Shown piece after piece: positions 26,997 to 52,009 of a stretch of DNA of 60,627 nucleotides. The position numbers were made by a program, and so were the translations under genes. This DNA is from Lachnospiraceae bacterium (lineage in GTDB: Bacteria; Bacillota; Clostridia; Lachnospirales; Lachnospiraceae): positions 1-60,627 of the forward strand of contig JAILJC010000070.1 in assembly GCA_024694965.1 (NCBI GenBank). The letters are read 5' to 3'. Below the pieces are notes generated by a model. It had not been told where the DNA came from, did no database searches, and saw nothing but the letters and a program-made list of their open reading frames with translations. Position 1 is the stretch's first letter. Every line of letters begins with the position of its first letter.

Positions 26997-27033
26997 AAGC
27001 CACCCCGGAATAACTCCGAAGCAGCCCTGCTCC
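26997..27033 (-). promoter_or_regulatory. Transcription attenuator with ANTAR-type hexaloop (hydroxyacid dehydrogenase-carAB leader)
   Basis: The terminator stem (26997-27027, several G-U pairs, loop GTTAT) is followed leftward by TTTGTTTTTT and then the start codon region. The alternative hairpin GGAGC-AGGGCT-GCTTC (27033 to 27018) has a six-base loop with A1 and G4, and uses the 5' arm of the terminator, so the two structures exclude each other. Such a layout matches targets of ANTAR antiterminators. Confidence 0.7.
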
Positions 27034-27040
27034 AAAAATC

Positions 27041-27068
27041 ATTATAATCCATAATTCTGCGCTGTCAA
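27041..27068 (-). promoter_or_regulatory. Consensus promoter of the carAB operon
   Basis: TTGACA, 16 bases, TATAAT read leftward. The expected start (about 27034) falls right at the base of the hexaloop hairpin. Confidence 0.85.
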
Positions 27069-27075
27069 TAATGAT

Positions 27076-27390
27076 TTACTGTTCCTGATTCTTAAGTGCT
27101 CTCCTTACCGAGCCCTTGGGATCGGTTATAAGGAGCCTTACAACCCAGACGATAAGTCCGAGCGCAACCACGGCAAGGCCTAAGAAAGAATCATTAAGCA
27201 TATCCTGGGCCGACGGAGTAAAGTATTCCGCTCCAAGCTCAAAATACTCAAAGAGTGCATCAACAAGCCACATAAGTGCAGCTCCCCAGTACATGAAGCA
27301 GAGGATACCAAGCTTCATGGAATCATCCTTACGCCTGTACCAGATGACGGTAGCTATGACCGCCGCATATGTCGTGATAAGTAGAGTCAT
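27076..27390 (-). CDS. Small membrane protein
   Basis: I do not recognise a family. The 104 residues contain three hydrophobic stretches (about 2-16, 27-48 and 68-88) with Trp and charged residues between, and a basic C-terminus. The start codon overlaps the last codons of the preceding gene (27387) by four bases, so the two small membrane proteins are coupled and may form a complex. Both follow a lipoprotein gene. The stop lies only 8 bases from the carAB -35 box. Confidence 0.7.
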   Translation of the reverse strand: MTLLITTYAAVIATVIWYRRKDDSMKLGILCFMYWGAALMWLVDALFEYFELGAEYFTPSAQDMLNDSFLGLAVVALGLIVWVVRLLITDPKGSVRRALKNQEQ

Positions 27391-27785
27391 GCGTTTGCCC
27401 CCTCCGTTTCCTCGTCAGTCTTCCTGTTGATTATGCTGTCAGCCACCCTGCATATCCCGGCCCATACCGCCGTGATGAGAGCTGCCATGCATACGCCGTT
27501 CGTCCCTATCTCCTTAAGCATCTCTGCCGTATCCTCGGCATTTGACATTGCCGTAAGGAACGGGAACCACGCCGTTACCTCTCCGTGCCATACATGCTCG
27601 AAAGCAAGCAAAAAAGCGCCGCCCCAAAGCATGCGGTTAAGCCACTTAAGCTTACGGCTTAAGGGAATCTTAACGATCCCTCCTTCTGACTCGGAAACTG
27701 CATTTACGTCAGCCTTTCCTTCCATCTTCTTCTCAACTGCGGTAACAATGACCGCCTCCGTCACCGGTGCCAAAAAACAAGCCAT
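27387..27785 (-). CDS. Small membrane protein, coupled partner
   Basis: A 132-residue protein of unrecognised family. It begins with MACFLAPVTEAVIVTAV, where a Cys-Phe-Leu-Ala-Pro followed by TEAV suggests an N-terminal helix, then a soluble stretch, then hydrophobic helices near residues 52-65 and 97-113. The ATG follows GGAGGGAGACAGG. It lies 20 bases after the lipoprotein gene and overlaps the next membrane gene. This indicates a three-gene envelope unit with unknown function. Confidence 0.7.
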   Translation of the reverse strand: MACFLAPVTEAVIVTAVEKKMEGKADVNAVSESEGGIVKIPLSRKLKWLNRMLWGGAFLLAFEHVWHGEVTAWFPFLTAMSNAEDTAEMLKEIGTNGVCMAALITAVWAGICRVADSIINRKTDEETEGANA

Positions 27786-27804
27786 CCTGTCTCCCTCCTT
27801 TGCT

Positions 27805-28704: not shown

Positions 28705-28808
28705 AATTCCTCCAAGTATTCATCCTCTGCGGCCAAAACCTGAATCATCCATCCCGGATGACCGCATCGCCTGAGTATAGAATACTAGTCATACGGCTTA
28801 TTTGTCAA

Positions 28809-31883: not shown

Positions 31884-33638
31884 TCACTCGACGTCCTTAA
31901 GGGCTTCGAGATCTTCCTCGCCTGTTCTGATCTTGATGACTTTCTCAACAGGATAAACGAATATCTTACCGTCACCGATATGACCGGTGTAAAGAGCCTT
32001 CCTGGCTGCCTCGATGACATCCTTGATAGGAACATTTCCTATAACGACTTCCACCTTAACCTTCGGAAGCAATGTCATATCAACCTCGACTCCACGATAT
32101 CTCTCTCCGGCACCCTTCTGGACACCGCAGCCCATTACCTGTGTTACAGTCATTCCTGTTATGCCGACTTCATTAAGTGTTTTCCTGAGCACATCGTATC
32201 TTGAGAGCTTCGCGATTATTACCACCTTGTTCATGCCGGTATCGACAAACGGAGCGGTGACAACCGGTACAGCGGCATTTTTCTTCGCCTGTGAAGCTTC
32301 TTCGTACTCACCTACACCAAGATCAGTGTTCTCGTTAACTTCCATCGTCATGGTGTTTGCCACATCCATGATCGCAAAGCCCGAGTATGCCGATGCAAGA
32401 CCATGTTCGGTAGAATCAAGTCCTGAGATCTCCTCTTCTTCGGAAACACGCAGGCCCACAATCTTCTTGATGATCGCATATGCGATGATTATCGTAACTA
32501 CCGTCCATACTATCGTAACGAACATTCCGACGAACTGCTTTCCAAGCTGTGTGAAGCCGCCGCCGTAGAAAAGGCCTTCAAGGATCTCAGCCTTTGCAAA
32601 TCCGGGAGCCGTTTCGGTCGCAAACAGACCAACCGCCAATGTACCCCAGATACCGTTCATCATATGTACCGCAACGGCACCGACGGGATCGTCAACGTGT
32701 AACACGTTATCCGTAAACCATACGCCGAATACTACGAGCAGGCCGGCTACTATACCTATAACCGCAGCACCGAAGCAGTCGGTTACATCGCAGGGAGCCG
32801 TAATGGCTACAAGACCTGCAAGAGAAGCGTTAAGACACATCGAAACATCGGGCTTTCCGTATTTTATCCATGTAAAGATCATACAGGTCACGGTTGCAAC
32901 AGCGGGAGCTACGGTGGTGGTTAGGAACACCGAGCCGAGAGTAGGGATATCTGTTGCAGCCGCACCGTTGAATCCGTACCATCCAAGCCACAGGATGAAT
33001 ACGCCCAGAGCCGCGATCACTAAGTTGTGACCCGGGAAGGCATTGACTTTGGTGACTTTGCCTTCTTTATCCCTCACAAACTTTCCGATACGGGGACCTA
33101 ACATCCATGCACCGATCAGGGCACAGATACCGCCCACCATATGGATACAGTTGCTTCCGGCATAATCGTGGAATCCCCACTGGGCAAGGAAACCGCCGCC
33201 CCAGGTCCAGTGCGCCTCCACCGGATAGATTATCGCCGAGATTATTGCCGAATAAATACAGTATGCCGAGAATTTGGTACGCTCAGCCATCGAACCTGAT
33301 ACTATAGTCGCCGTGGTCGCACAGAAAACCAGGTTGAACACGAACGCCGAGTAATCAAAGTTGCCGTAATTTGTGAACACATCGAAGGTGAACTTGCCGG
33401 AAAATCCTCCGAGCATGTTTTCACCGAGCATTATCGAAGCGCCGCAGATGAACCACATAACGGTACCTATACAGAAGTCCATAAGGTTTTTCATTATGAT
33501 GTTGCCTGCGTTCTTGGCCCTCGTAAAACCCGACTCGCACATTGCGAATCCCGCCTGCATCCAGAACACCAGCGCTGCACCTATAAGGAACCACACGCCG
33601 TACACTTCACCGTTGATCAATTCCATGATTTCTTCCAT
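31884..33638 (-). CDS. amt: Ammonium transporter fused to a PII signalling domain
   Basis: Residues 1 to about 420 form an Amt/MEP/Rh channel with eleven helices; the twin histidines are in CIHMVGGICAL and AVHMMNGIWG. After a linker with KKNAAVP, residues 472-584 are a full PII protein: EVGITGMTVTQV, the T-loop [22 protein letters not shown] and IGDGKIFVYPVE. In free PII proteins a separate GlnK/GlnB plugs the channel; here the gate is covalent. The T-loop Tyr that is uridylylated in enterobacteria (Tyr51) is Val, so GlnD-type control is excluded, while the neighbouring Tyr of YRG is kept. The gene has an ANTAR-type attenuator directly before its ribosome site. Confidence 0.95.
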   Translation of the reverse strand: MEEIMELINGEVYGVWFLIGAALVFWMQAGFAMCESGFTRAKNAGNIIMKNLMDFCIGTVMWFICGASIMLGENMLGGFSGKFTFDVFTNYGNFDYSAFVFNLVFCATTATIVSGSMAERTKFSAYCIYSAIISAIIYPVEAHWTWGGGFLAQWGFHDYAGSNCIHMVGGICALIGAWMLGPRIGKFVRDKEGKVTKVNAFPGHNLVIAALGVFILWLGWYGFNGAAATDIPTLGSVFLTTTVAPAVATVTCMIFTWIKYGKPDVSMCLNASLAGLVAITAPCDVTDCFGAAVIGIVAGLLVVFGVWFTDNVLHVDDPVGAVAVHMMNGIWGTLAVGLFATETAPGFAKAEILEGLFYGGGFTQLGKQFVGMFVTIVWTVVTIIIAYAIIKKIVGLRVSEEEEISGLDSTEHGLASAYSGFAIMDVANTMTMEVNENTDLGVGEYEEASQAKKNAAVPVVTAPFVDTGMNKVVIIAKLSRYDVLRKTLNEVGITGMTVTQVMGCGVQKGAGERYRGVEVDMTLLPKVKVEVVIGNVPIKDVIEAARKALYTGHIGDGKIFVYPVEKVIKIRTGEEDLEALKDVE

Positions 33639-33668
33639 AATATTTTCTCCTCTCCTTATTTAATAAAA

Positions 33669-33700
33669 ACGGCGCCAACAAATCGTTGACGCCGTTGTCA
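33669..33700 (-). promoter_or_regulatory. Transcription attenuator with ANTAR-type hexaloop (amt leader)
   Basis: Terminator: eleven-pair stem (33669-33695, loop GATTT) followed by TTTTTATT and then the AAGGAGAGGAG ribosome site of amt. Alternative hairpin: TGAC-AACGGC-GTCA (33700 to 33687), loop with A1 and G4. It shares bases with the terminator 5' arm. No clear promoter is seen between it and glnN, so it may act on read-through from glnN. Confidence 0.7.
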
Positions 33701-33721
33701 TTTAATATTTTATTAATTCAC

Positions 33722-33780
33722 GGTCATAAATCCTTGTCTGCATCATTAAGCAAGCTTATGATGCAGTCCGGATTTTGACC
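33722..33780. repeat. Near-perfect 59-base hairpin, copy B of the palindromic element
   Basis: Begins GGTCATAAATCCTTGT, identical to 21639-21654, and pairs with GGATTTTGACC at its other end; the inner arms CTGCATCAT/ATGATGCAG differ completely from copy A yet still pair. It lies seven bases after the glnN stop codon. Confidence 0.7.
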
Positions 33781-33786
33781 TTTGAA

Positions 33787-35886
33787 TTACACGTAGAAAA
33801 GTATCTCCTCATACTTAGGATACGGCAGGTACTCCGCGGGGATGTACCCTTCGATCGAATCCGCCACGCTGCGGATCTTTTCCATATCCGTGATGACCGT
33901 ATCATGATAGAACTTAGCCTGCTTGAGTGAATCTGCGATCCCCTCCGCCTTATCGGTATCCTTTGAAAGCTTCTCGGTAAGGTCGAATATCTTATCGTAG
34001 CTGTCACTTAAGAGCTTGATAACCTTCATATCGGCTTTGCTCGTAAGGGAAGCACTGAGTGCCTTCTTTGCGCTTACCGAAGCGATAAGTCCGTCTACAT
34101 ACTCGCCGACTGCCGGAAGGAACTGTGATAATATCATGTCCTTAAGAGTCAGGCTCTCGATATGCAGTGTCTTGCTGTAGTTCTCAAGCAGGATCTCATA
34201 CCTTGAATCGATCTCCGACTCGGTAAAGATATTATGCTTCTCAAACAGCTTCTTGTTCTTGTCGGCGATGAATGCCGGAAGCGCATCGGGAGTGGAACGT
34301 AAGTTGTAAAGTCCCCTCTTCTCTGCTTCCTTAACCCACTCGTCCGTATAGCCGTTACCGTTGAAGATAACGCGCTCATGAGCAGTGATCGACTCCTTGA
34401 CAAGTGCATGTACCGCAGACTCCATATCCTTCTTGGATACGCCCTTAAGCTTCTCGTAGAACCTGCTGAGTACCTCGGCAACCGCCGTGTTAAGTATGAT
34501 GTTAGGTCCCGAAACCGATACCGATGAACCCAGTGACCTGAACTCGAACTTGTTACCCGTAAATGCAAACGGTGAAGTCCTGTTACGGTCCGTGTTATCC
34601 TTCGTGAAGTGAGGGATTACCGTTGTGCCGATGTTCATCTTTGTTGTCTTTATCTTTTCAAAGAACGTGTCATTCTTGATAGAATCAATTACTGCCTGAA
34701 GCTCTTCTCCAAGGAAGATCGAAATGATCGCGGGCGGTGCCTCGTTTGCTCCGAGCCTGTGATCGTTTCCGGGGCTTGCAACCGATACCCTTAAGAGGTC
34801 CGCATAATCATCAACCGCTTCTATTATCGCTGCAAGGAATACCAGGAACTGAATGTTGTCAGCCGGTGTCTTGCCGGGATCTAAGAGGTTTACTCCCGTA
34901 TTTGTTGTCATCGACCAGTTGTTGTGCTTACCTGATCCGTTTATTCCGTCAAACGGCTTCTCATGGAGCAGGCACACAAGGTCATGCTTTTCGGCAACCT
35001 TCTTCATTATCTCCATCGTCAGCTGGTTGTGATCGGATGCAACGTTCGTTGTGTCAAACACCGGTGCAAGCTCATGCTGGCAGGGAGCAACTTCGTTATG
35101 CTTTGTCTTTGCGGGGATACCCAGCTTCCAAAGCTCAAGGTCAAGGTCATGCATGTATGCGGCTACCCTGGGCTTGATGGCTCCGAAGTAATGATCCTCC
35201 ATCTCCTGGCCCTTGGGAGGCAGCGCGCCGAGCAATGTCCTTCCCGTAAATATTAAGTCTTTCCTCTTCTTGTATGTTTCCTTGTCGATAAGGAAATATT
35301 CCTGCTCGGGACCTACCGTTGTGGAAACGCCGGTAACATCCGTCTGGCCTATTAAGTTAAGCACCCTTGTGGCTTCCTTTGAAAGCGCATCCATCGATCG
35401 AAGCAGCGGTGTCTTCTTATCAAGGGCCTCACCCGTGTATGAACAGAACGCTGTCGGGATGTATAAGGTACCATCCTTTATGAATGCCGGTGAAGTAGGA
35501 TCCCATGCCGTATATCCTCTTGCTTCGAATGTGGCACGAAGTCCGCCTGAAGGGAAGCTTGATGCATCGGGCTCACCCTTTACGAGTTCCTTACCCGAGA
35601 AATCCATGATGATGTCGCCGTTCCCTACCGGTGTTATGAAGCTGTCGTGCTTCTCTGCGGTGAATCCCGTCATCGGCTGGAACCAATGAGTGTAATGTGT
35701 TGCACCGTTTTCAACCGCCCACTCCTTCATTGCGACCGCAACCGAATTGGCTACGTCAAGTTCCAGATGCGTATTATTCTCGATCGTCTTCCTAAGTGCT
35801 TTGTAAATGTCCTTGGGAAGCTTGTCGCGCATGACTTTATCATTGAAAACAAGACTCCCGTATAACTCCGGTATCTTCTGTGCCAT
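33787..35886 (-). CDS. glnN: Glutamine synthetase type III
   Basis: Makes glutamine from glutamate, ammonia and ATP; GSIII is the large double-ring form found in many anaerobes. The 699 residues start with an N-terminal GSIII-specific region ([13 protein letters not shown]), then metal-binding segments such as GPEQEYFLI and [13 protein letters not shown], the loop [13 protein letters not shown], and a C-terminal helical extension of about 180 residues. All catalytic motifs look intact, unlike the short GS-like gene at 49527. It is therefore the main ammonium-assimilating GS of the window. It stands alone behind its own consensus promoter and ANTAR-type attenuator. Confidence 0.96.
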
Positions 35887-35921
35887 ATTCTTGTCCTCCT
35901 TTGTCTTTTGTAAATAAAGAA

Positions 35922-35954
35922 GGCCGCTCCGGTCAAACCGGAGCGGCCCTGCTC
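35922..35954 (-). promoter_or_regulatory. Transcription attenuator with ANTAR-type hexaloop (glnN leader)
   Basis: Terminator: perfect 12-pair stem GGCCGCTCCGGT/ACCGGAGCGGCC with a TTG loop (35948 to 35922) followed leftward by TTCTTTATTTA, then AAAGGAGG. Alternative hairpin: GAGC-AGGGCC-GCTC (35954 to 35941), six-base loop with A1 and G4, overlapping the terminator 5' arm. Confidence 0.75.
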
Positions 35955-35963: not shown

Positions 35964-35991
35964 ATTATAAACACAAAAATCATTCTGTCAA
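35964..35991 (-). promoter_or_regulatory. Consensus promoter of glnN
   Basis: TTGACA, 16 bases, TATAAT read leftward, a perfect match in both hexamers. The expected start (about 35957) is three bases before the hexaloop hairpin. Confidence 0.88.
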
Positions 35992-36023: not shown

Positions 36024-37532
36024 TTATATCCCCGAATAACCCATCAGGGCTTCATCGACCGCCTTGGCCGCATTCCTGCCCTCACTTATCGCCCATACTA
36101 CAAGCGACTGGCCCCTGTGCATATCACCCGCCGTGAACACGCTGTCACGGCTCGTTTCGTATCCTTCTTCTGCCGTTTCCACATTTGTACGGGCGTTTAC
36201 ATTGACCCTAAAACCTTCGGTAACATAGGCCTCGCTTCCAAGGAATCCGGCTGCGATAAGTACAAGGTCCGCCTTAAGCTCTTCTTGACTTCCTTCAACG
36301 TTTACCATCTGCAGCCTGCCGGTTTTTTCATCCTTCTTAGGCGTCAGCTTAACCGTCCTTACTCCCGTAAGGTTACCCTTTTTATCCTTTATGAACTCGT
36401 CCACGGTTGTCTGGTAAATCCTGGGATCACTACCGAAGCAGGCGATCGCTTCCTCCTGGCCGTAATCAGTTTTAAGCACCTTCGGCCATTCGGGCCAGGG
36501 ATTGGAATCCGCCCTCTCTGAACACGGACAGGGCATCATCTCAAGCTGGATGACTGATCCTGCGCCAAGCCTTATAGATGTTCCCACGCAGTCGTTACCG
36601 GTATCACCGCCGCCTATGACGATAACATTCTTACCCTTAAGGCTGCCGAAAGAATAATCCGAAGCTGCAATGCACTTCTTATAATCATAGCCTGAGTCCA
36701 TTATCTTTTTGGACACTTCCGTTAAAAAATCAACCGCGAAATAAATGCCCTTTGCATCCCTTCCGGGAGCTTTTATATCCCTCGGATTTGACGCACCGCA
36801 TGCAAGCACTACCTTATCGTACTGCTTCATCAGCTCTTCGGGGGCTATGTCCTTTCCGACGTTAGCATTGTAGATAAACTTAATTCCGCTCTCTTCCATG
36901 AGTCTGATACGGCGGTCTATCACCCTCTTATCAAGTTTCATGTTGGGTATACCGTACCTAAGGAGCCCTCCTGCCCTGTCGCGGCGCTCGTATACCGTTA
37001 CCTCATGTCCGCGCTTATTAAGCCAGTATGCCGCGGAAAGTCCCGCCGGACCGCTGCCTATAACGGCGATCTTCTTGCCGGTGCGTACCTTTGGTATGTC
37101 GGGCTTTACAAGTCCGTTTTCAAATGCATATTCAATGACCGTTCTCTCGTTTTCCTTGGTGGATACGGGTTCGCCGTCACAGCCCACCGTACATGCCGCC
37201 TCGCACAGTGCGGGACATACACGTGAGGTAAACTCCGGGAAACAGTGTGTTTTGCTAAGCCGTACATACGCCTCACTTAAATTCCCGTGGTACACGTAAT
37301 CGTTTATCTCGGGCACTAAGTTGTGAAGCGGGCAGCCCGAAGCCATTCCCGAGATCATCACTCCTGCCTGGCAGAAGGGTATGCCGCATGCCATACACCT
37401 TGCTCCCTGGCGCATCTGATCCTTTACCTTTAACAGGCCGTGGAATTCGTCAAAGTCGTTTATCCTTTCCTTAACGCTCCTAACCGGGCCCTCATTCCTG
37501 TCATATTCCAAAAAACCGGTCGGCTTACCCAT
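36024..37532 (-). CDS. gltD: Glutamate synthase small subunit (NADPH)
   Basis: Transfers electrons from NADPH to the large subunit. The N-terminal iron-sulphur region has two cysteine clusters, CMACGIPFCQAG and CPALCEAACTVGC. The FAD motif is VIGSGPAGLSAAYWLNKRG near residue 152 and the NADPH motif VIGGGDTGNDCVG near 295. Length 502 residues is typical. It overlaps the gltB stop by eight bases, so the two subunits are made in step. It is the last gene of the asnB-pyrG-purF-gltB-gltD unit. Confidence 0.95.
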   Translation of the reverse strand: MGKPTGFLEYDRNEGPVRSVKERINDFDEFHGLLKVKDQMRQGARCMACGIPFCQAGVMISGMASGCPLHNLVPEINDYVYHGNLSEAYVRLSKTHCFPEFTSRVCPALCEAACTVGCDGEPVSTKENERTVIEYAFENGLVKPDIPKVRTGKKIAVIGSGPAGLSAAYWLNKRGHEVTVYERRDRAGGLLRYGIPNMKLDKRVIDRRIRLMEESGIKFIYNANVGKDIAPEELMKQYDKVVLACGASNPRDIKAPGRDAKGIYFAVDFLTEVSKKIMDSGYDYKKCIAASDYSFGSLKGKNVIVIGGGDTGNDCVGTSIRLGAGSVIQLEMMPCPCSERADSNPWPEWPKVLKTDYGQEEAIACFGSDPRIYQTTVDEFIKDKKGNLTGVRTVKLTPKKDEKTGRLQMVNVEGSQEELKADLVLIAAGFLGSEAYVTEGFRVNVNARTNVETAEEGYETSRDSVFTAGDMHRGQSLVVWAISEGRNAAKAVDEALMGYSGI

Positions 37533-42084: not shown

Positions 42085-42125
42085 ATCCTCTGTCTCCTCA
42101 TGTGTATCACTTATGATACTGTATT

Positions 42126-43502
42126 TCAAACCGGGTAATTATTGTCAAAACATGCCTTGCATACCGGCAGTCCGTCAAGCATTTCCATAAAGTCATCCGT
42201 ATCAAGATAGCTTAACGAATCAGCTCCGACGGCCTTTTTTATCTCCTCGCCCGAATGGCCCGATGCAATGAGCTGCTTGCTGCTTGGAACATCGGTCCCG
42301 TAATAGCAGGGATATAAAAACGGCGGTGAGCTTATCCTTACATGGACCTCCTTTGCCCCGCAGGATTTAAGCATCTCGATTATCTGCCGCATCGTTGTGC
42401 CCCTTACGATGGAATCGTCTATGAGCACCAGGCTCTTATCCTTTACAACATCCTTAAGGACGCTCAACTTCATGTGTACGGCCGTGTTCCTTTCTTCATC
42501 GGTCGGCTTTATGAAGCTCCTGCCTATGTAACTGTTCTTCTGGAAGGCAAGTACGAACGGTATGCCCGACTCCTTTGAATAACCTTCCGCCGCGGCCAGT
42601 CCCGAATCGGGAACTCCCGCCACGATATCCGCCTTTACCGGATTCCTTCGTGCCAGTGCCATTCCGGCCTTAAGCCTTGCCTCATGCACGTTTATCTTAT
42701 CTATAACGGAATCGGTCCTTGCAAAATATATATATTCAAACACGCAGTGTGCGGGCTTCTTTCCGCACAGCTCCTCATTGCTCTTTATCCCTTCATCGGA
42801 TATCGTGATCACTTCACCGGGCTTTATATCCCTTATGAGCTCACCGCCAACCGAGACTATCGCACAGCTCTCGGAAGCCAGCATGTAGGTATCGCCCCTT
42901 TTTCCGAGTACCAGGGGCTTTATCCCGTAAGGATCCCTGATGCCGATAAGCTTTTTGGGGCTCATGACTATCACCGCATAGCCGCCGCGCAGCCTTCCCG
43001 CCGCCCTCTGTACGGCCACCTCCACCGAGGAGGAATAAACCCTTTCGCTCACTATCTCATACGCCAGCACCTCGGTATCCGATGTCGTGTAATGTGCCTG
43101 TCCGCGGTACATCTGCTCCTGCTTTATCTCTTCGGTATTGACGATGTTCCCGTTATGCACTACAGCAAGCGAACCCTTGATGTAATTCATCGCTATCGGC
43201 TGGGCATTTGCAAGTATGCTTCCTCCCGTTGTCGAATAACGCACATGCCCCACGCCTATGTTGCCCTTGGTCTGTTCAAGGAACTTCCTGTCAAAGACCT
43301 CGCTCACAAGTCCCATTCCCTTGTGGGTGATGATGTTTCCCATGGGTCCGTCCGTATCGCATACCGACATTCCCGCGGATTCCTGTCCCCTGTGCTGCAG
43401 GGCGATAAGTCCGTAGTATATATCCGAAGCCACATTGCTGCCGCTTCCCGCAAAAATACCGAATACACCGCATTCCTCATGAAGCTTATCTGACATATCC
43501 AT
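42126..43502 (-). CDS. purF: Amidophosphoribosyltransferase
   Basis: First step of purine synthesis: glutamine plus PRPP gives phosphoribosylamine. It has a class II glutaminase with Cys11 (EECGVFGIF) after a ten-residue propeptide, and a phosphoribosyltransferase loop VLIDDSIVRGTTMRQ. Cysteines in PAHCVFEY, FLYPCYY and CKAC near the C-terminus match the 4Fe-4S ligands of Bacillus-type PurF, which makes the enzyme oxygen-sensitive. It is not with other pur genes; instead it lies ten bases after pyrG in a set of glutamine-using enzymes. Confidence 0.95.
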   Translation of the reverse strand: MDMSDKLHEECGVFGIFAGSGSNVASDIYYGLIALQHRGQESAGMSVCDTDGPMGNIITHKGMGLVSEVFDRKFLEQTKGNIGVGHVRYSTTGGSILANAQPIAMNYIKGSLAVVHNGNIVNTEEIKQEQMYRGQAHYTTSDTEVLAYEIVSERVYSSSVEVAVQRAAGRLRGGYAVIVMSPKKLIGIRDPYGIKPLVLGKRGDTYMLASESCAIVSVGGELIRDIKPGEVITISDEGIKSNEELCGKKPAHCVFEYIYFARTDSVIDKINVHEARLKAGMALARRNPVKADIVAGVPDSGLAAAEGYSKESGIPFVLAFQKNSYIGRSFIKPTDEERNTAVHMKLSVLKDVVKDKSLVLIDDSIVRGTTMRQIIEMLKSCGAKEVHVRISSPPFLYPCYYGTDVPSSKQLIASGHSGEEIKKAVGADSLSYLDTDDFMEMLDGLPVCKACFDNNYPV

Positions 43503-43511: not shown

Positions 43512-45167
43512 TTATTCGATACCGGCTTTCTTAAGTGCCTCACTTACCAGTCCCTTGAACAGCGGATGAGGGGCATCGGGTCGTGACTTGAATTCGGGAT
43601 GCGCCTGTGTTGCCACGAAATACGGATGGTCCTTAAGCTCTATCATCTCGACTATGCGTCCGTCAGGCGACAGGCCCGATAATGTCATGCCCGCCTTTGT
43701 GAGCACCTCCCTGTAATCATTGTTAACCTCATACCTGTGACGGTGCCTCTCGGAGATAAGCTTGTACTTACAGCCCTCTGCCGCCTTTATATCCTCACCG
43801 TTTGATAAGTCGTAATCATACAGTTCATATGCCCTGCTGCCTTCCTTAAGTACACAGGGATAGGCACCCAGCCGCAGCGTTCCTCCAAGGTTTTCAACAC
43901 CCTCCTGATCGGGCATAAGATGTATGACGGGATTCTTCGTATCCGGTGAAAACTCAACGCTTCCCGCATCTTTTAACCCGCATACGTTCCTTGCAAATTC
44001 AACGATCGATAACTGCATCCCAAGGCAGAGCCCGAGGAACGGGATCTTTTTCTCCCTTGCATATCCTATCGCAAGTATCTTTCCTTCTATGCCCCTAGAC
44101 CCGAAGCCTCCCGGTACCAGTATCCCCTGCAGATCATGCAGGTATTCATCCAGGTTGTCGGGAGTAAGCTCCTCAGAATCGATCCATCTTATCTTTACCT
44201 GGGTCTTATATGCGATGCCTCCGTGATTTAATGCTTCGACTACGCTAAGGTATGCATCATGCAGTGCAACATATTTACCGACTATGCCGATCTCAACCGA
44301 ATGCCTCGGATTGTGGAAATCCTCAACCAGCTGTTTCCATGCCGTAAGATCGGGCTCCACGCAGGGAAGCTTTAAGCACTCGCAAACGGCATCCGCGAAA
44401 TTTTCCTCCTCAAGCATCAGCGGTACTTCGTATAACGACTGTGCATCAAGGTTCTGGAGCACATGCTCCTTCTTTACGTTACAGAAAAGCGCGATCTTCT
44501 CACGCATCGAATCGTCTATCGGATAATCTGAACGGCACACCAGGATGTCCGGCCATATTCCCATGCTCTGCAGGCTCTTTACGCTCATCTGCGTGGGCTT
44601 TGTCTTCATCTCACCCGAAGCCTTGATATACGGGATAAGAGTCACCTGAATGATGATCGCATTCTCGCGTCCCACTTCAGACTGGAACTGCCTTATCGCC
44701 TCAAGGAAGGGCTGGCTTTCGATGTCACCCACCGTTCCGCCGATCTCGATTATCGATATGGTCTCTTCATCGGGGCTCTGCGCCTTGTGGAACCTGTCCT
44801 TTATCTCGTTTGTGATATGCGGTATGACCTGTACGGTGCCTCCGCCGTAATCTCCGTGCCTTTCCTTGTTAAGTACCGACCAGTATATCTTTCCCGTCGT
44901 AACGTTTGAATTCTTGTTAAGGCTTTCGTTTATGAAGCGCTCGTAGTGCCCAAGGTCAAGGTCTGTCTCCGTTCCGTCATCTGTTACGAACACCTCGCCG
45001 TGCTGGATGGGGTTCATCGTTCCCGGATCCATGTTTATGTACGGATCGAACTTCTGCATGGTCACATGATATCCCCTTGCCTTTAAAAGACGTCCGAGAG
45101 ATGATGCCGTTATTCCCTTACCAAGGCCTGATACAACGCCGCCGGTTACGAATACGTATTTAACCAT
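43512..45167 (-). CDS. pyrG: CTP synthase
   Basis: Converts UTP to CTP with glutamine as nitrogen donor. The N-terminal amidoligase domain starts [20 protein letters not shown]; the C-terminal class I glutaminase has the nucleophile in GLCLGMQL and the His/Glu in AHPEFKSRP. Length 551 residues is slightly longer than the 535 usual in Firmicutes but intact. A ribosome site GGGAGGGGG precedes the ATG. It is between asnB and purF in the same unit, ten bases from purF, and 146 bases after asnB across a region with repeats. Confidence 0.95.
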
Positions 45168-45273: not shown

Positions 45274-45318
45274 ATCATAAGGAATCCACCATCTTCGATG
45301 GTACCCCTTATGATCAAT
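45274..45318. repeat. Hairpin at the asnB stop, including direct repeat copy 2
   Basis: Arms ATCATAAGG/CCTTATGAT (45274-45314) with inner ACCATC/GATGGT. Bases 45297-45318 repeat copy 1 exactly. The last codons of asnB are within the repeat. Confidence 0.7.
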
Positions 45319-46894
45319 CCCCTGAAGCTCCATAGTTTGCCAGTACCCTGGCCGAAGGATCGTTAACATCACAGCCCTCCCATGACTTGTTGGGCATCCA
45401 GAAATCAACAACCATCTTAGACTGTCCCGGATAATACTCCTCAAATATCTCACGATACAGCAGTGATTCTTTGGTAAACGGCCTTGCATGGTCGTACTTC
45501 TTTACAAGCTTCTCAAATTCCTCATCCGAATACTTTTCTTCCGCATAAGCCTTAAGATGATCTACCATCGAATGGCCAACCGCATCCGAAAAGGCTGCCT
45601 TCTCACGCATCAGGATGTCGTAAGGAAGGTAGTCGCCCTCAAATGCATGACGCAGCAGGTACTTACCCTTGTTGTAAACGTTCATCTTCTTGGCGGGATT
45701 TATGCTCATTACGTAATCAACGAAATCAAGGTCACCGAACGGAACCCTCGCTTCCAGTGAGTTAACGGAAATACACCTGTCCGCACGCAGCACGTCATAC
45801 ATATGTATCTCGTCTATCCTCTTTACCGCTTCCTTCTGGAACTCCTCGGGTGACGGAGCAAAATCGGTATATTTATATCCGAACAGCTCATCCGAGATCT
45901 CACCGGTAAGCAGCACGCGGATATCGGTCTGTTCATGTATCGCCTTGCACACAAGGTACATTCCCATGCTCGCACGGATCGTCGTTATATCGTAGGTACC
46001 CAGTATCGAAATGACCGTCGGAAGCTCGCGGATAACGTCTTCCTTTGTTATTATCACTTCGGTGTGGTCGCTCCCCAAATAATCCGCAACTTCCTTTGCA
46101 TACTTAAGGTCGATCGCATCCGTGTTCATTCCTATCGCAAATGTCCTTATAGGCTTATCCATAATCTTTGCGGAAACGGCACACACAAGTGAACTGTCAA
46201 GGCCGCCGCTTAAAAGGAAGCCGAGAGGTGCATCGGAATCAAGCCTCTTTTCGATACCCTTTACCAGCTTGTCGTGTATGTTCTTACATATCGTATCTAT
46301 ATCGTCATCCACGAACTTATCGACCTTTGTCATGCTCCTGTAGCATACAAATTCTCCGTCCTTATAGTAATGTCCGGGAGGGAACGGGAATACTTCTTTT
46401 ACCAGTCCGACAAGGTTCTTTGCTTCCGAAGCAAACACTATCTCATCGTCCTTAACGTACCCGTAGAAGAGTGGCCTTATGCCGATCGGATCACGTGCGG
46501 CTACGAATGACTCTGCCTTTGCATCATAAATAATGCATGCAAACTCGGCATCGAGTTTTTCAAACATATCAACGCCGTACAGTTCGTACATCGGAAGTAA
46601 AAGCTCACAGTCAGAGTCACTTTTGAAGGTGTATCCCTTAGCCTTAAGCTCTTCCTTTATCGGCCTGAACCCGTATATCTCACCGTTGCATACGACAACG
46701 TTATCATTAAGTGTAAACGGCTGCATTCCTTCTTCATGAAGGCCCATGATAGACAGACGCTCAAAGCCCATGATACCGCCGGGGATATTTATTATCCTCT
46801 GCATATCCGGCCCCCTCGACGTTGTCTTGTCGAAATGCTCCTTAAATTTCTCCATTGTAAGGCTGCTTCCAAGATATCCCATTATGGAACACAT
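45314..46894 (-). CDS. asnB: Asparagine synthase (glutamine-hydrolysing)
   Basis: Makes asparagine from aspartate, glutamine and ATP. Cys2 of MCSIMGYLG is the class II glutaminase nucleophile, so the start is certain. The synthetase domain has the ATP loop LLSGGLDSSLVCAVSA near residue 232 and GEISDELFGYKY near 330. Length 526 residues resembles the E. coli AsnB form. It is first in the asnB-pyrG-purF-gltB-gltD unit and carries its own promoter and an ANTAR-type attenuator. Its product feeds the AsnS encoded at 6.5 kb. Confidence 0.95.
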   Translation of the reverse strand: MCSIMGYLGSSLTMEKFKEHFDKTTSRGPDMQRIINIPGGIMGFERLSIMGLHEEGMQPFTLNDNVVVCNGEIYGFRPIKEELKAKGYTFKSDSDCELLLPMYELYGVDMFEKLDAEFACIIYDAKAESFVAARDPIGIRPLFYGYVKDDEIVFASEAKNLVGLVKEVFPFPPGHYYKDGEFVCYRSMTKVDKFVDDDIDTICKNIHDKLVKGIEKRLDSDAPLGFLLSGGLDSSLVCAVSAKIMDKPIRTFAIGMNTDAIDLKYAKEVADYLGSDHTEVIITKEDVIRELPTVISILGTYDITTIRASMGMYLVCKAIHEQTDIRVLLTGEISDELFGYKYTDFAPSPEEFQKEAVKRIDEIHMYDVLRADRCISVNSLEARVPFGDLDFVDYVMSINPAKKMNVYNKGKYLLRHAFEGDYLPYDILMREKAAFSDAVGHSMVDHLKAYAEEKYSDEEFEKLVKKYDHARPFTKESLLYREIFEEYYPGQSKMVVDFWMPNKSWEGCDVNDPSARVLANYGASGD

Positions 46895-46931
46895 ATGATC
46901 TTCCTCCTTTGTCCTTACCTGCCAAACAAAA

Positions 46932-46968
46932 AAGGCGCTTCGAACCGTAGTTCAAAGCGCCTTCGCTT
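46932..46968 (-). promoter_or_regulatory. Transcription attenuator with hexaloop hairpin (asnB leader)
   Basis: Terminator: 14-pair stem starting AAGGCGCTT (46963 to 46932, loop TACG) followed by TTTTTTG, then GGAGG before asnB. Alternative hairpin: AAGC-GAAGGC-GCTT (46968 to 46955). The loop has G4 but G instead of A at position 1, and an extra G-C pair could shrink it to a tetraloop. This is the weakest member of the five-leader set. Confidence 0.65.
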
Positions 46969-46977: not shown

Positions 46978-47006
46978 ACTATATTCCTTTTTTTTATCTA
47001 AGTCAA
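46978..47006 (-). promoter_or_regulatory. Promoter of the asnB-gltD operon
   Basis: TTGACT, 17 bases, TATAGT read leftward, starting 24 bases after the glmS stop. The expected start (about 46971) is three bases before the hexaloop hairpin. Confidence 0.8.
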
Positions 47007-47029: not shown

Positions 47030-48868
47030 TTACTCGACCGTTACGCTCTTTGCAAGGTTTCTCGGCTTGTCGACATCAAGGCCGCGGGCAACGCTCATGT
47101 AATAACCCATTAACTGCAGAGGTATCACGGCAACCGAAGCCGCAAACAGCTCGTCGGTCTTTGGGATGTAAACGGTAAAGTCGGCCGTATCCTCAATCTC
47201 ATAATTTCCGCTGTTGGTAAGGCCGCAAAGGTATGCCCCCCTGCTCTTTACCTCGACCATATTGGATACTGTCTTTTCATACAAATCATTCTGGGTGATG
47301 ACGCCTATTACCAGCGTGCCGTCCTCGACAAGGCTTATCGTTCCGTGCTTAAGTTCACCGGCTGCATAAGCTCCCGAATGAACGTAGCTTATCTCCTTCA
47401 TTTTAAGGCTGCCCTCGAGGCTTATTGCGTAATCAATACCCCTTCCGATGAAGAACACATCATGAACGTTTGAGAACTTCGCGGTAAACCACTGGAGCCT
47501 CTCCTTATCCTCAAGCGAGCGCTCTATCTTGCCGGGAAGCTTCTTTAATTCCTCAATGAGCTCAGCCTCCCTGTCATTATCTATCATGCCCTTGGCCTTC
47601 GCTATCCTTATCGCAAGGATGTATACCGCGATAAGCTGTGCACTGTAGGCCTTGGTCGTTGCGACCGCGATCTCGGGACCCGCCATCGTATACATTACAT
47701 GATCGGCCTCCCTGGCTATCGTGGAACCGACTACGTTTACGATACCGAGTGTCTTTATCTTCCTGCCGTGGGCTTCCCTTATTGCCGCAAGGGTATCCGC
47801 CGTCTCACCGGACTGTGATATCGCTATCACCATAGAATCATCCGAAAGTATGGGGTTGCGGTACCTGAATTCGGAAGCAAGCTCGACCCTTACGGGGATC
47901 CTTGCAAGCTTCTCTATAACATACTGGCCGACCATACCCACATGGTAAGCCGAACCGCACGCCGTGATGTGGACCTGTGATAAGCCCTTAAGCTCCTCAT
48001 CGGTAATACCTACATTTGAAAGGTCGATACCTGTTTCCTTGACATAAGCGTTTATCGTATCCTGAACTGCCTTGGGCTGCTCATGGATCTCCTTCATCAT
48101 GAAATGCTCGAACCCGCCCTTTTCGGCAGCTTCCGCATCCCATTCAACCTTGGTGAGTTCCTTTTCTATCTCCTCGCCGTCGAGGTTATAGAAATGTACT
48201 TCCCCGCCCTTTAAGCAGGCCATTTCCAGGTTGCCTATATAATAAACGTTCCTTGTATGCTTAAGTATCGCGGGAACATCGGATGCAACAAAGCTTGCCT
48301 TGCTGTCGACGCCGATTATCATGGGAGAATCCTTACGGGCTACCCATATTTCTCCCGGATGATCTTTAAACATGACCGCAAGCGCATATGAACCGCGGAC
48401 ACGCACCATCGTTTTTGCGATAGCATCGATGGGACCGATGTTGTACTTTTTATAGTAGTAATCTATGAGCTTTACTATGGCTTCGGTATCGGTTTCCGAA
48501 TAGAAAGTGTAATTCTTCTTAAGCAGCTTATCCTTTATTTCGGTGAAGTTCTCGATGATACCGTTGTGTACCGCAACAACCTCGAAATCGTCACTGTGAT
48601 GGGGATGCGCATTGTTCTCTGAAGGCTCGCCGTGTGTTGCCCAGCGGGTATGCCCTATACCGCAGCATCCCTTCATCGCCTTACCGTCGTCAGTTTTGTT
48701 GGCAAGCTCCTGCAAACGTCCCTTGGCCTTAACGATCTTTACCTTATCCTCGCCGTCACGTACCGCAAGTCCCGCAGAATCATAGCCCCTGTATTCAAGC
48801 TTCGTAAGCCCCTCCAAAAGGATGGGCGCCGCCTGTTTATTACCGCAGTAACCGACTATTCCGCACAT
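47030..48868 (-). CDS. glmS: Glutamine-fructose-6-phosphate aminotransferase
   Basis: Makes glucosamine-6-phosphate for peptidoglycan precursors. Cys2 of MCGIVGYCGN starts a class II glutaminase; two SIS sugar-isomerase domains follow (SQSGETADTLAA near residue 350, and GRGIDYAISLEG near 470), ending KSVTVE. Length 612 residues is standard. I see no glmS ribozyme in the 45-base gap upstream, so control probably comes through the dapL-led operon and its attenuator instead. It follows the ANTAR gene. Confidence 0.95.
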   Translation of the reverse strand: MCGIVGYCGNKQAAPILLEGLTKLEYRGYDSAGLAVRDGEDKVKIVKAKGRLQELANKTDDGKAMKGCCGIGHTRWATHGEPSENNAHPHHSDDFEVVAVHNGIIENFTEIKDKLLKKNYTFYSETDTEAIVKLIDYYYKKYNIGPIDAIAKTMVRVRGSYALAVMFKDHPGEIWVARKDSPMIIGVDSKASFVASDVPAILKHTRNVYYIGNLEMACLKGGEVHFYNLDGEEIEKELTKVEWDAEAAEKGGFEHFMMKEIHEQPKAVQDTINAYVKETGIDLSNVGITDEELKGLSQVHITACGSAYHVGMVGQYVIEKLARIPVRVELASEFRYRNPILSDDSMVIAISQSGETADTLAAIREAHGRKIKTLGIVNVVGSTIAREADHVMYTMAGPEIAVATTKAYSAQLIAVYILAIRIAKAKGMIDNDREAELIEELKKLPGKIERSLEDKERLQWFTAKFSNVHDVFFIGRGIDYAISLEGSLKMKEISYVHSGAYAAGELKHGTISLVEDGTLVIGVITQNDLYEKTVSNMVEVKSRGAYLCGLTNSGNYEIEDTADFTVYIPKTDELFAASVAVIPLQLMGYYMSVARGLDVDKPRNLAKSVTVE

Positions 48869-48913
48869 ATACTCCTCCTGCTTGATATAATGCCCCCGAC
48901 AAGATGATCCCTC

Positions 48914-49501
48914 CTACTCAAGGTCATCTATTATCCTCTCGGCCATCCTCTTCTTGGACGAACCGCTGTCCATCGCCTGTTTGATTATGTACTTATGGGC
49001 CTCGGCCTCACTCATGTTCCTCTCTTCCATTAACATGAACTTGGCCTTATCGACTATCCTTAATTCCTCGTTCTTCTCCCTTGCAGCCTCCACCTCATGC
49101 TTTAAAACGTGGATCCTGTTCTGCAGGGCGATGACAAGCCTTATCGTCTTTCGTAAGTTGCCCTCCCGAAACGGCTTGGCGATCGCGATTATGCCTCCGT
49201 TTGCGATCCGTTCAGTAACGTCATCGTAAGCCTGGGCAGGGACAACCATCATAACGGTTGCACTGCACATATCCGTTACATCCATCGCAAACTCGTATCC
49301 GATCTCATCGGGAAGCGGTGAATTTATAATAACTATATCATAAAACCGTTCCTGAATACACTGCCTTGCAGTTGCCGCACTCTTCCTGTGATCGAGCAGG
49401 AAATAAGCTCCGTCAGGCAGCGCCGATTTGATGAGAGCATTAAACTTCTCGGAATTCGATACTATCAATATGGAATGTTGTATGTCTTCATTCCTTGGCA
49501 T
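48914..49501 (-). CDS. ANTAR antiterminator with a non-phosphorylatable receiver
   Basis: RNA-binding regulator. Residues 10-125 form a receiver-like fold, but the phospho-Asp position is Asn60 (YDIVIINSPLPDE) and the acidic pocket is Ser15-Asn16; only Lys109 of IAKPF is kept. A coiled coil (about 126-148) leads to the ANTAR domain (about 148-192): LRIVDKAKFMLMEERNMSEAEAHKYI and KQAMD, with the spacing known from AmiR, EutV and NasR. ANTAR domains bind hexaloop RNA hairpins and prevent terminator formation. No kinase is near, and the receiver could not use one, so the signal is probably protein or ligand binding. The neighbouring GS-like protein is the obvious partner. I recall similar Asn-bearing ANTAR proteins beside GS genes in other Clostridia. 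Confidence 0.9.
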   Translation of the reverse strand: MPRNEDIQHSILIVSNSEKFNALIKSALPDGAYFLLDHRKSAATARQCIQERFYDIVIINSPLPDEIGYEFAMDVTDMCSATVMMVVPAQAYDDVTERIANGGIIAIAKPFREGNLRKTIRLVIALQNRIHVLKHEVEAAREKNEELRIVDKAKFMLMEERNMSEAEAHKYIIKQAMDSGSSKKRMAERIIDDLE

Positions 49502-49526
49502 AGAAACCCCTTTGTCCTAAACGTCC

Positions 49527-50699
49527 CTACTTTGTATAGTTCCTTATTATCGCCTCGGGAACTATCTCCTTAACAAAGTCACTCTCGGTTGCAAGCTTTA
49601 CGGCCTCCCTGCGCGAACCGGGAAGCAGCACGCTCTTTTCATCCATTTCCTTGGGAAGTACGAGCTTATCCTTAATACCCCTAAGTCCCGCATGTATGAG
49701 CAGTGAATAAACAAGATACGGATTCGACGAAGCATCGGGTGACCTAAGCTCCGCACAGGTCCTTCCGTTATATTCTTTTAATGACATGAGCTCAGAATCA
49801 CCGTCATTTGACCAGTTGACCTTATCGGGTGCGGTATTGTTGCCAAGCCTTGCGTATGACGCATCGGCAGGATTTAAGAACAGGGTGATGTCCCTTATCT
49901 TATCCATGATGCCGGCTGCAACATACCTTGCCACGTCATTTCCGTCCTTATCGGTCGCATAAATGTTTATATGATATCCGTTGCCGGGTTTGCCGGGAAG
50001 CGGAAGCGGCGAAAAGTCGGCCACCAGTCCGTAGCGGTCTGCCACCGTGCATACCACCATCTTAAAAGTGGTCATCTGATCGGCTGCCTTTAAGGGCTTG
50101 CCGTAGTGGAAATCTATCTCATTCTGCCCGGGTCCCTGCTCATGGTGTGACCTCTCGGGAACAAGTCCCATCTTTTCTATCGTAAGGCATATCTCCCTCC
50201 TTACGTTCTCGCACCTGTCAAGGGGAGCTATGTCCATGTAAGCCGCCTCGTCATAGGGGATCTTTGTCGGATTGCCGTCTTCATCCTTAAGGAACAGATA
50301 AAACTCGGCTTCGGAACCGAAGCGGATCTCAATGCCCGCATCCTTTGCAGCCTTTGCGGCCGCTTTGAGTATGCTCCTTGTATCCTGCGCAAAAACCTCA
50401 CCGTCCGGTGTATACACATCGCAGAACATCCTTAATACCTTACCGCTCTCGGATCTCCACGGAAGTATGGAAAGCGTTGACGGATCGGGCTTTAAATACA
50501 GCATGGGATACTGACTCTCCTCAAATCCGGTTATCATCCGGGCATTTATGGGCGCGCCGAAATCGAAGGCTTTCTTAACCTCCCCCGGCATCACCGAAAT
50601 GTTCTTCTGTATCCCGAATGCATCGCGGAAGGCAAGCCTTATAAACTGCGCCTCCTCTTCCTCGATATATTTCAAAACCTCTTCAGCCGTGTATTCCAT
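49527..50699 (-). CDS. Glutamine synthetase-like protein, probable pseudoenzyme
   Basis: A GSI-fold protein of 390 residues, about 50 shorter than GlnA. Kept: metal ligands Glu130/Glu132 (GSEAEFYLF), Glu187/Glu194 (HHEQGPGQNEIDF), His243 (GNGYHIN), and Glu317/Arg319 (AELRSPD). Lost by my hand alignment with Bacillus GlnA: the FDGSS loop Asp (here INARM), the flap Glu of PGYEAP (here GNNTAP, Thr289), and the arginines of NRSPLIRIP. The C-terminal tail is missing. The ATP/glutamate pocket may remain while catalysis should not. It lies 25 bases upstream of the ANTAR gene in reading order, which suggests a sensor role; a gamma-glutamyl ligase with altered substrate is the alternative. Confidence 0.85.
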   Translation of the reverse strand: MEYTAEEVLKYIEEEEAQFIRLAFRDAFGIQKNISVMPGEVKKAFDFGAPINARMITGFEESQYPMLYLKPDPSTLSILPWRSESGKVLRMFCDVYTPDGEVFAQDTRSILKAAAKAAKDAGIEIRFGSEAEFYLFLKDEDGNPTKIPYDEAAYMDIAPLDRCENVRREICLTIEKMGLVPERSHHEQGPGQNEIDFHYGKPLKAADQMTTFKMVVCTVADRYGLVADFSPLPLPGKPGNGYHINIYATDKDGNDVARYVAAGIMDKIRDITLFLNPADASYARLGNNTAPDKVNWSNDGDSELMSLKEYNGRTCAELRSPDASSNPYLVYSLLIHAGLRGIKDKLVLPKEMDEKSVLLPGSRREAVKLATESDFVKEIVPEAIIRNYTK

Positions 50700-50710
50700 T
50701 TCTTCCTCCT

Positions 50711-51931
50711 TTAAATGTGAAGCTTCTTTATCCTGTTAACAGCCTCTGCCGTGTTCTCATGACTTGAGAAACCCGTAAGCCTGAAGTAGTGCTCACCGCC
50801 CGGTCCGAAGCCGGAACCCGGTGTACCGACCACGTTCGCATCCTTAAGAAGGTGGTCGAAAAAGTCCCAGCTGCTCATGTTATCCGGAGTCCTAAGCCAG
50901 ATATACGGTGCGTTGACCCCGCCGTAAACCTCATAGCCGCATTCCTTAAGCCCGTCATATATACACTTTGCATTTTCCATATAATAGGCAACCTGGTCAA
51001 GTACCTGCTTACGGCCTTCCTCCGAGTATACCGCCTCACCGGCCCTTTGCACGATGTAAGGTGCTCCGTTATACTTTGTGCCGTGTCTCCTTGCCCACAG
51101 TGAGTGAAGGCTTACGCCGTCAAGCTTAAGCTCCTTGGGGATCACTGTAAATCCGAGACGTAGTCCCGTAAATCCCGCAGTCTTTGAAAATGAGCGGAAC
51201 TCTATAGCGCATGCCTTCGCACCGTCACACTCATATATGCTGTGCGGCACGTCATCCTGAGAGATGTATGCTTCGTAAGCCGCATCATACAGTATAACCG
51301 AGCCGTGTTCATTTGCATAATCCACCCATTTCTGCAGCTTGTCCTTAGTTATCACAGCTCCCGTCGGGTTATTTGGGAAGCATAAGTAGATAAGGTCAGG
51401 AACTTCACCCGGCAGATCGGGGGTAAAGTCATTTTCCGCAGTGCAGGGCATGTATATTATACCCTTGTAACATCCCGCTTCGGGATCGTATTCACCGCTC
51501 CTTCCGGCCATCACGTTTGAATCAACATATACCGGATACACGGGATCGCAAACCGCTATCGTATTGTCCTTTGAAAATATCTCCTGTATGTTCCCGCAGT
51601 CGCACTTGGCACCGTCGGAAACGAATATCTCATCCGCCGCTATGTCGCAGCCCCTTGACTTATAATCCTTTTCGGCTATGGTACTGCGTAAAAACTCATA
51701 GCCAAGGTCGGGCGCATATCCCCTGAAGGTTTCCTTTTCGCCCATCTCACTGACCGCACTGTGCAGCGCTTCTATCACCTTTGGTGCAAGCGGCTGCGTT
51801 ACATCGCCGATACCGAGCCTTATTATCGTAGCATCGGGATTTTCAAGCGCATATTCCTTAACCTTCTTTGCTATAGTTGAAAACAGGTAGCTGCCCGGAA
51901 GTTTTAAATAATCAGTATTTGCCTTAGCCAT
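50711..51931 (-). CDS. dapL: LL-diaminopimelate aminotransferase
   Basis: Converts tetrahydrodipicolinate to LL-diaminopimelate in one step with glutamate as amino donor. PLP enzyme of fold type [28 protein letters not shown], and the PLP Lys in [15 protein letters not shown] near residue 240. Length 406 residues matches DapL. The ATG at 51931 follows GGAGGATAAAGATC; an in-frame start 16 codons earlier lies inside the attenuator and is rejected. First gene of the dapL-GS-like-ANTAR-glmS operon; with DapF at 21 kb it gives meso-DAP for the wall. Confidence 0.94.
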
Positions 51932-51974
51932 GATCTTTATCCTCCAAATGTATTTCCATAAACGCAAAAAAGAA

Positions 51975-52009
51975 GACACTTTGAGCCTTACTCAAAGCGC
52001 CTTTGCTTT
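51975..52009 (-). promoter_or_regulatory. Transcription attenuator with ANTAR-type hexaloop (dapL leader)
   Basis: Terminator: 11-pair stem GGCGCTTTGAG/CTCAAAGTGTC with two G-U pairs and loop TAAGG (52001 to 51975), followed by TTCTTTTTTG. Alternative hairpin: AAAGC-AAAGGC-GCTTT (52009 to 51994), five perfect pairs, six-base loop with A1 and G4. This places the operon that encodes the ANTAR protein under its own type of control. Confidence 0.75.

Follow-up and report, generated by a model that had tools for sequence, protein, structure and literature searches.

Transcription units and leaders of the window

The window analysed here is a 60,627-nucleotide stretch of Lachnospiraceae bacterium DNA (GCA_024694965.1, contig JAILJC010000070.1), which is contig C153 of the draft genome G000 (2.76 Mb, 228 contigs, 88% complete). 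It holds five putative transcription units, all on the minus strand, and each of the five leaders carries a small hairpin with a six-base loop (hexaloop) that overlaps a strong terminator, as the initial annotation of this DNA had stated. One of the units encodes a protein with an ANTAR domain, which is the proposed antiterminator of this element. The closest named relative found was Lachnospiraceae bacterium RGIG7959 (L002), whose ANTAR protein is 86% identical.

All coordinates of genes, hairpins, terminators and promoters given in this section are on the minus strand. The first unit begins with a D-2-hydroxyacid dehydrogenase gene (26013..26969; PF02826, NF006263), followed by carA for the small subunit of glutamine-hydrolysing carbamoyl-phosphate synthase (24912..26000; TIGR01368) and carB (21707..24928; NF003671); the initial annotation had named it by CarAB only. 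The second unit is amt fused to a PII domain (31884..33638; PF00909 and PF00543), and the third is glnN for a type III glutamine synthetase (33787..35886; PF12437, PF18318, PF00120). The fourth contains asnB (45314..46894; PF00733, PF13537), pyrG for CTP synthase (43512..45167; TIGR00337), purF (42126..43502; TIGR01134), gltB (37525..42129; NF008730) and gltD (36024..37532; TIGR01317). The fifth contains dapL for LL-diaminopimelate aminotransferase (50711..51940; TIGR03542), a glnA-type glutamine synthetase gene (49527..50699; PF00120, PF03951) that the earlier operon list had lacked, the adjoining ANTAR gene (48914..49501; PF03861, E 9.7e-14) and glmS (47030..48868; SIS and GATase domains). 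The receiver domain of the ANTAR protein is degenerate, and its ANTAR domain was the only one found in the G000 assembly with PF03861.

The hexaloop hairpins are GAGC(AGGGCT)GCTT in the hydroxyacid dehydrogenase-carAB leader (27019..27032), TGAC(AACGGC)GTCA between glnN and amt (33687..33700), GAGC(AGGGCC)GCTC in the glnN leader (35941..35954), AAGC(GAAGGC)GCTT in the asnB leader (46955..46968) and AAGC(AAAGGC)GCTT in the dapL leader (51995..52008). As first noted, loop position 4 is G in all five (G4) and position 1 is A in four (A1); the asnB leader has G there (G1), and a C-G pair closes five of five loops. In every leader, the hexaloop and the 3' arm of the small hairpin make up the 5' arm of an intrinsic terminator, which lies at 26996..27028 in the carAB-operon leader (found by folding, with a T-rich tail), at 33668..33696 in the amt leader, at 35920..35950 in the glnN leader, at 46931..46964 in the asnB leader and at 51973..52003 in the dapL leader. 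Since the terminators begin within the hexaloop, the small hairpin and the terminator are mutually exclusive. At -2.0 to -4.0 kcal/mol the small hairpins are weak, and at -17.8 to -27.5 kcal/mol the terminators are strong, so termination is probably the default and the small hairpin would need something to hold it.

Just 5' of four leaders there is a near-consensus sigma-70 promoter. The promoters of the hydroxyacid dehydrogenase-carAB operon (27041..27068) and of glnN (35964..35991) both read TTGACA-16-TATAAT and were the only two 12/12 matches to the consensus in the 20 kb scanned, and those of asnB-pyrG-purF-gltB-gltD (TTGACT-17-TATAGT; 46978..47006) and dapL-glnA-ANTAR-glmS (TTGACA-18-TATCAT; 52020..52049) match at 10/12 and 11/12 positions. 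The -10 box ends 8-11 nucleotides (nt) before the stem of 4 base pairs (bp), so that, with start sites placed from the promoters, the hairpin would begin roughly between +2 and +6. When the whole window was compared with 4227 Rfam models at E up to 1, the four promoter-linked leaders were matched by no family.

The amt leader had no promoter at the distance usual for the other four, and the orthologue of its hairpin in genome G017 is TGGC(AAAGGC)GTCG. A sub-threshold Rfam match to Clostridiales-1 RNA (33618-33789, minus strand; 34.8 bits, gathering 48) runs across the glnN-amt gap and takes in the hexaloop of amt; the match has a well-formed 5' hairpin and is poor elsewhere, and its long hairpin was not present in the 190 nt before amt of G017.

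Conservation and gene targets of the element

To follow the element in other genomes we used R1, a covariance model made from 25 leaders (alignment A2), which runs from the -35 box to the hairpin with its 4 pairs and includes neither the terminator nor any gene. R1 E-values are rough. In G000, the four best matches were the four promoter-linked leaders of the window, with E-values of 0.094 (carAB operon), 0.041 (glnN), 0.0011 (asnB) and 9.4e-4 (dapL). Ten weaker G000 matches (E 0.46-9.4) were rejected as members, as none of them joins a hairpin with an overlapping terminator; one of the ten, on contig C124, has a terminator without the hexaloop hairpin. In another of the ten, at G000:C19:2116-2158 (plus strand; L108, E 1.3), the hexaloop hairpin GAAC(AAGGTC)GTTT follows a promoter-like site and no terminator overlaps it.

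Among 37 genomes of the genus, R1 gave 87 matches in 34 genomes at E 0.1, 70 of them in 29 genomes that had supplied no training row, whereas a decoy model with the hairpin reversed gave 3 matches in 3 genomes. The genes 3' of the 87 matches were glnN (19), asnB (13), purF (11), carA (6), glnA (5), gltB (4), pyrG (3), glmS (3), dapL (3), gltD (2), hydroxyacid dehydrogenase (2), amt (1) and others (15, of which 7 precede dapF). Glutamine, nitrogen or diaminopimelate genes thus follow 79 of the 87 matches, that is, 72 homologues of the cluster proteins plus the 7 dapF genes, which supports the earlier proposal of one attenuator regulon over glutamine metabolism. The element also stands 5' of an ABC transporter ATPase gene (L152, G013:C258:7864-7919; PF00005), possibly for amino-acid uptake, and at L272 (G207:C85:29813-29862) the downstream protein starts like that of L152.

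A strict terminator criterion was passed by 77 of the 87 genus matches versus 62 of 1740 base-shuffled 3' stretches, and in a subset from the order by 38 of 45 versus 25 of 900. A lax criterion was dropped because the shuffles passed it too often (83/87 versus 680/1740; 41/45 versus 323/900). Loop frequencies were calculated from 81 matches, leaving out six (L163, L167, L177, L181, L186, L194) whose downstream gene or lack of the motif made membership unlikely; G4 and the C-G closing pair were found in 81/81, A1 in 70/81 and G1 in 11/81, so that the A1 of the ANTAR signature is relaxed here to a purine. In 86 of the 87 matches the stem followed the -10 box at a distance of 7-13 nt, a spacing that the model itself favours. 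Unregulated 5' stem-loops, acting in mRNA protection or in constant premature termination, would suit a hairpin at the extreme 5' end and the strength of the terminators, but they leave both the invariant loop features and the targeting of glutamine and related genes unexplained, and we regard them as very improbable.

The stems of A2 vary by compensatory changes (GAGC/GCTC, AAGC/GCTT, GAAC/GTTC, CAGC/GCTG). This bears on a further explanation, that the hairpin sequence is a DNA operator lying over the start site and bound by a transcription factor, which would agree with its palindromic form and its closeness to the promoter. Against an operator stand these compensatory changes, the inner terminator sequence that varies between leaders, and the window amt copy and second copies that lie away from promoters, so that of all the explanations considered here it is the one we find hardest to credit.

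The element was also sought around glnN by a promoter-blind, loop-agnostic test of 30 loci, 23 with glnN of at least 73% identity and 7 near 60%, which left out one partial 84% match (G033) and second glnN copies. A hexaloop with a purine at position 1 and G4 overlapped a terminator at 22 of the 23 close loci, and 29 of the 31 hexaloop/terminator overlaps in these loci were of this kind. Among the distant glnN loci the element was present at 2 of 7. Many members of the genus have two glnN genes, one near that of the window and one about 60% identical (L297-L326).

A further scan, over 1.395 Mb of sequence surrounding ANTAR genes, sought hairpins of at least 4 bp with any six-base loop and an overlapping terminator. 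It yielded 1956 overlaps, among which AAAGGG, AAGGGA and AAGGAC were the three commonest loops. Seventy-eight overlaps had a promoter of at least 10/12 at 3-16 nt upstream, and these were A1 plus G4 in 76 cases and G1 plus G4 in 2, with C-G closure in 78/78. The share of A1 plus G4 was 85 of 97 at promoter scores of at least 9/12 and 161 of 1859 below 9/12. These counts are not independent events, since every locus was retrieved through its ANTAR gene and Ruminococcus supplied many that are related to one another.

ANTAR genes, the ANTAR protein and the number of hexaloops

Draft-genome completeness limits statements of absence in all comparisons of element and ANTAR gene. In the genus, 32 of the 37 genomes had both, 2 the element only, 1 ANTAR only and 2 neither. 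Of 294 genomes of the order searched at E 0.03, 124 gave the element and 230 gave ANTAR; 118 genomes had both, 6 had the element alone, 112 had ANTAR alone and 58 had neither (Fisher 1.7e-10, inflated by shared ancestry). Of 293 genomes of the class searched at E 0.01, 79 gave the element and 156 gave ANTAR, with both in 70, the element alone in 9, ANTAR alone in 86 and neither in 128 (Fisher 1.3e-14, likewise inflated). The earlier expectation of covariance-model matches upstream of nitrogen genes, in ANTAR-carrying genomes and with covarying stems, held up, most of the genomes with a match carrying ANTAR. Where a match and an ANTAR place were both listed for a genome, the match lay within 10 kb of ANTAR in 39 of 91 cases in the order and 49 of 100 in the class. 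In the genus, 34/34 ANTAR domains (PF03861) have a glnA no more than about 1.5 kb away, and 32 of 33 ANTAR-bearing genomes have a single domain.

Downstream genes in the order were read for 45 of about 150 listed matches, mostly the best loci and the six element-only genomes. Four of the element-only matches look genuine and two do not; the four lie at amt (by comparison), at a contig end and at two genes whose proteins we take, by our own recognition, to be hisH-like and purC-like. In Ruminococcus (L014), divergent promoters point toward amt-PII and gltB-gltD-glnA-ANTAR, and the element occurs twice on the amt side; copies on the gltB side are listed for many loci related to L014.

The window protein was aligned with Rv1626 and EutV, and the family alignment had 48 rows, 43 of them distinct. 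We mapped the EutV residue positions on the alignment with EutV, with numbering as given in the available text of PMC8934654. The positions of the RNA-contacting residues K149, E160 and M172 of EutV were invariant in the 48 rows. The Y164 position was H, Y or F, and the R142 position was often not R. The window receiver has Asn in place of the phospho-Asp and Ser-Asn in place of the acidic pair, which does not fit phosphorylation of the EutV type; Asp occupies the phospho-Asp position in 2 of the 43 distinct proteins, neither of which has the acidic pair. Since the receiver lacks the phosphorylation residues, the signal probably arrives by protein contact, and the adjacent GlnA would be the first candidate partner, followed by the PII domain of Amt. 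The genus has two degenerate receiver types, an Asn-type and a Thr/Gly-type, which share the same RNA element and both adjoin glnA (e.g. L203, L206, L221), so that the sensor step could be studied separately from RNA recognition.

A real attenuator could also be read by a factor other than ANTAR, such as another RNA-binding protein, a small molecule acting on a mini-riboswitch, or NusA/NusG-dependent pausing. The single hexaloop, unlike described ANTAR targets, would agree with this, and so would the element without a detected ANTAR gene (2/37, 6/294 and 9/293 genomes) and the different residues at the R142 and Y164 positions. However, a purine at position 1 with invariant G4 fits the ANTAR recognition signature, co-occurrence with and proximity to ANTAR are strong, the one ANTAR domain of nearly every ANTAR-bearing genus genome (32/33) has glnA adjoining, as do all 34 domains, and the conserved part of only about 14 nt is small for a riboswitch, so we consider a non-ANTAR reader unlikely.

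The ANTAR target has been defined as two hexaloop hairpins (Ramesh 2012, PMC3369931, as far as its accessible text goes), and in EutV targets a 5-12 nt linker joins the hairpins P1 and P2. The initial annotation had called the shared element ANTAR-type; the leaders do not match the described motif, for they have one hexaloop near the transcript 5' end and not two. Over the 45 nt preceding the stem, none of the 87 genus matches had a P1-like hexaloop (purines at positions 1 and 2, G4, C-G closed). A looser test (purine at position 1, G4, C-G closed) gave 4/87 versus 26/1740 shuffles, and those four lie in promoter DNA; the loosest (purine at position 1, G4, any closing pair) gave 22/87 versus 309/1740. 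The 45-nt stretches are themselves promoter DNA 5' of the inferred start, and in the 100 nt upstream of the promoter-less amt leader none of the three tests found a hexaloop. Promoter-linked leaders thus have no room for P1 between the inferred start site and the hairpin, and a single hexaloop seems to be sufficient where described switches have two hairpins.

Classical dual-hexaloop ANTAR control could still operate if the second hexaloop lay in a downstream tandem attenuator or in a second nascent RNA. A second hexaloop with its own terminator was found 48-116 nt downstream at 7 of the 23 close glnN loci, and tandem attenuators occur in the Ruminococcus amt leader of L014 (2140-2262, minus strand) and in the glnN leaders of L310, L311, L313 and L316. 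With the terminator not scored, second hexaloops followed 8/19 glnN, 2/13 asnB, 1/4 gltB and 1/3 pyrG matches of the genus. On the other side, no downstream copy was found in 11/11 purF, 6/6 carA and 5/5 glnA matches, the upstream tests gave 0/87 or 4/87 in promoter DNA, and a second copy would be transcribed only once the first terminator is passed. Dual-hexaloop control is therefore an improbable account of these leaders.

A predicted glutamine regulon and its relation to known systems

We read these leaders, with a probability of roughly 80%, as a glutamine/nitrogen attenuation regulon in which a single start-site hexaloop is acted on by an ANTAR-protein antiterminator. Anatomy, conservation, gene targets and ANTAR association of the leaders come from the computations above; ANTAR binding, antitermination, its sign and the sensor, like the start sites, are predicted from sequence. 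In this mechanism, the polymerase would start a few bases before the 4-bp hexaloop hairpin, and by default the loop and 3' arm would re-pair downstream as the terminator, so that the transcript ends after about 40 nt. On nitrogen or glutamine shortage, which is the presumed sign, the ANTAR protein from the gene adjoining glnA would bind the hexaloop via G4 and the C-G closing pair, and the bound hexaloop would be kept until the polymerase clears the U-tract. Operons that make and spend glutamine would then be expressed, the ANTAR operon itself among them. One hexaloop would stand in for the usual P1 and P2 pair, and the signal would probably reach the ANTAR protein by contact, perhaps from the adjacent glutamine synthetase.

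A bolder version, which we put forward tentatively and at rather less than even odds, would have a lone start-site hexaloop act as the complete antiterminator throughout a clade-wide regulon, with glutamine synthetase as the sensor. GlnA under feedback inhibition would sequester the adjacent, phosphorylation-dead ANTAR protein and free it as glutamine falls, and the freed protein would turn on glutamine synthesis and the glutamine amidotransferases. If so, a trigger enzyme would control an RNA antiterminator, and no recruitment hairpin P1 would be required where the antiterminator emerges ahead of all other RNA.

Several observations weigh against an ANTAR-controlled single-hexaloop regulon. 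Deletion of P1 ablated induction in Enterococcus faecalis (Ramesh 2012, PMC3369931, in the text available), and the window protein has L where EutV has R142 and H where EutV has Y164. The 100% pairing in A2 is by selection, because its rows were chosen for having the hairpin, so that the alignment shows compensatory change and gives no independent proof of pairing, and 8 of the 87 genus matches precede unrelated genes or none identified. The element was found without a detected ANTAR gene in G023 and G028 of the genus and in 6 order and 9 class genomes, some of which cases draft assemblies may explain; G024 carries ANTAR and had no R1 match at E 0.1. At the cut-offs used, 112 of 230 ANTAR genomes in the order and 86 of 156 in the class had no R1 match; some ANTARs surely have different functions, and matches are also lost to the stricter filters.

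The predicted regulon has relatives in the literature, which is cited here from partial texts. Like EutV of E. faecalis, it combines a hexaloop with conserved positions 1 and 4, an overlapping terminator and, as proposed here, an ANTAR effector, but EutV targets need P1 and EutV is activated by phosphorylation, whereas the receiver here is degenerate. An ANTAR dimer grips one hexaloop, with contacts to a single one in the RNA-bound structure, and the minimal binding motif has been redefined as a single hexaloop (Walshe 2022, PMC8934654). The same paper allows single-hexaloop sites where the transcribing polymerase sets no time limit and discusses why antitermination needs two hexaloops. Natural single-hexaloop antiterminators would bear on this very question, why two are needed when the dimer grips one.

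The initial annotation knew of no published ANTAR nitrogen regulon, but such regulons are in print. Using the dual-hairpin model, Ramesh 2012 (PMC3369931) predicted nitrogen regulons in Desulfotomaculum and Pelobacter, with targets that "included but not limited to" PII, ammonium transporter, and glutamate and glutamine synthase genes. The present regulon is like them in covering several operons per genome and these same gene classes, but theirs are dual-hairpin, and the accessible text of that paper does not name asnB, purF, carAB, glmS, pyrG or dap genes. A review (PMC6316151, as far as available) describes NitR, an ANTAR protein of Clostridium saccharobutylicum that induces glutamine synthetase/glutamate synthase (GS/GOGAT) genes on nitrogen limitation, and TnrA of Bacillus, a regulator of nitrogen genes bound by glutamine synthetase. 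As with NitR, an ANTAR protein is here tied to GS/GOGAT genes, and the regulon is wider than that of NitR, for which the accessible review text describes no RNA element. TnrA with glutamine synthetase is the model for the proposed sensor step; TnrA is DNA-binding, whereas the partner here would be an RNA antiterminator. NitR is reportedly the subject of Stutz 2007.

A literature search that took in few subscription journals returned no account of such a regulon and none of an antiterminator with one hexaloop, which does not establish absence from print; the single start-site hairpin and the amidotransferase scope of the regulon look new. The regulon would explain how many gut and rumen Clostridia, Lachnospiraceae and Ruminococcus among them, set much of their glutamine-economy expression.

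Two other RNA matches in the window were found on the minus strand. Directly 3' of carB (21540-21707) there is a strong Rfam match to Clostridiales-1 RNA (123.7 bits), and a match to GA-cis RNA (15160-15241; 64.2 bits, gathering 34.7) lies just 5' of the open reading frame at 14153-15145 (minus strand).

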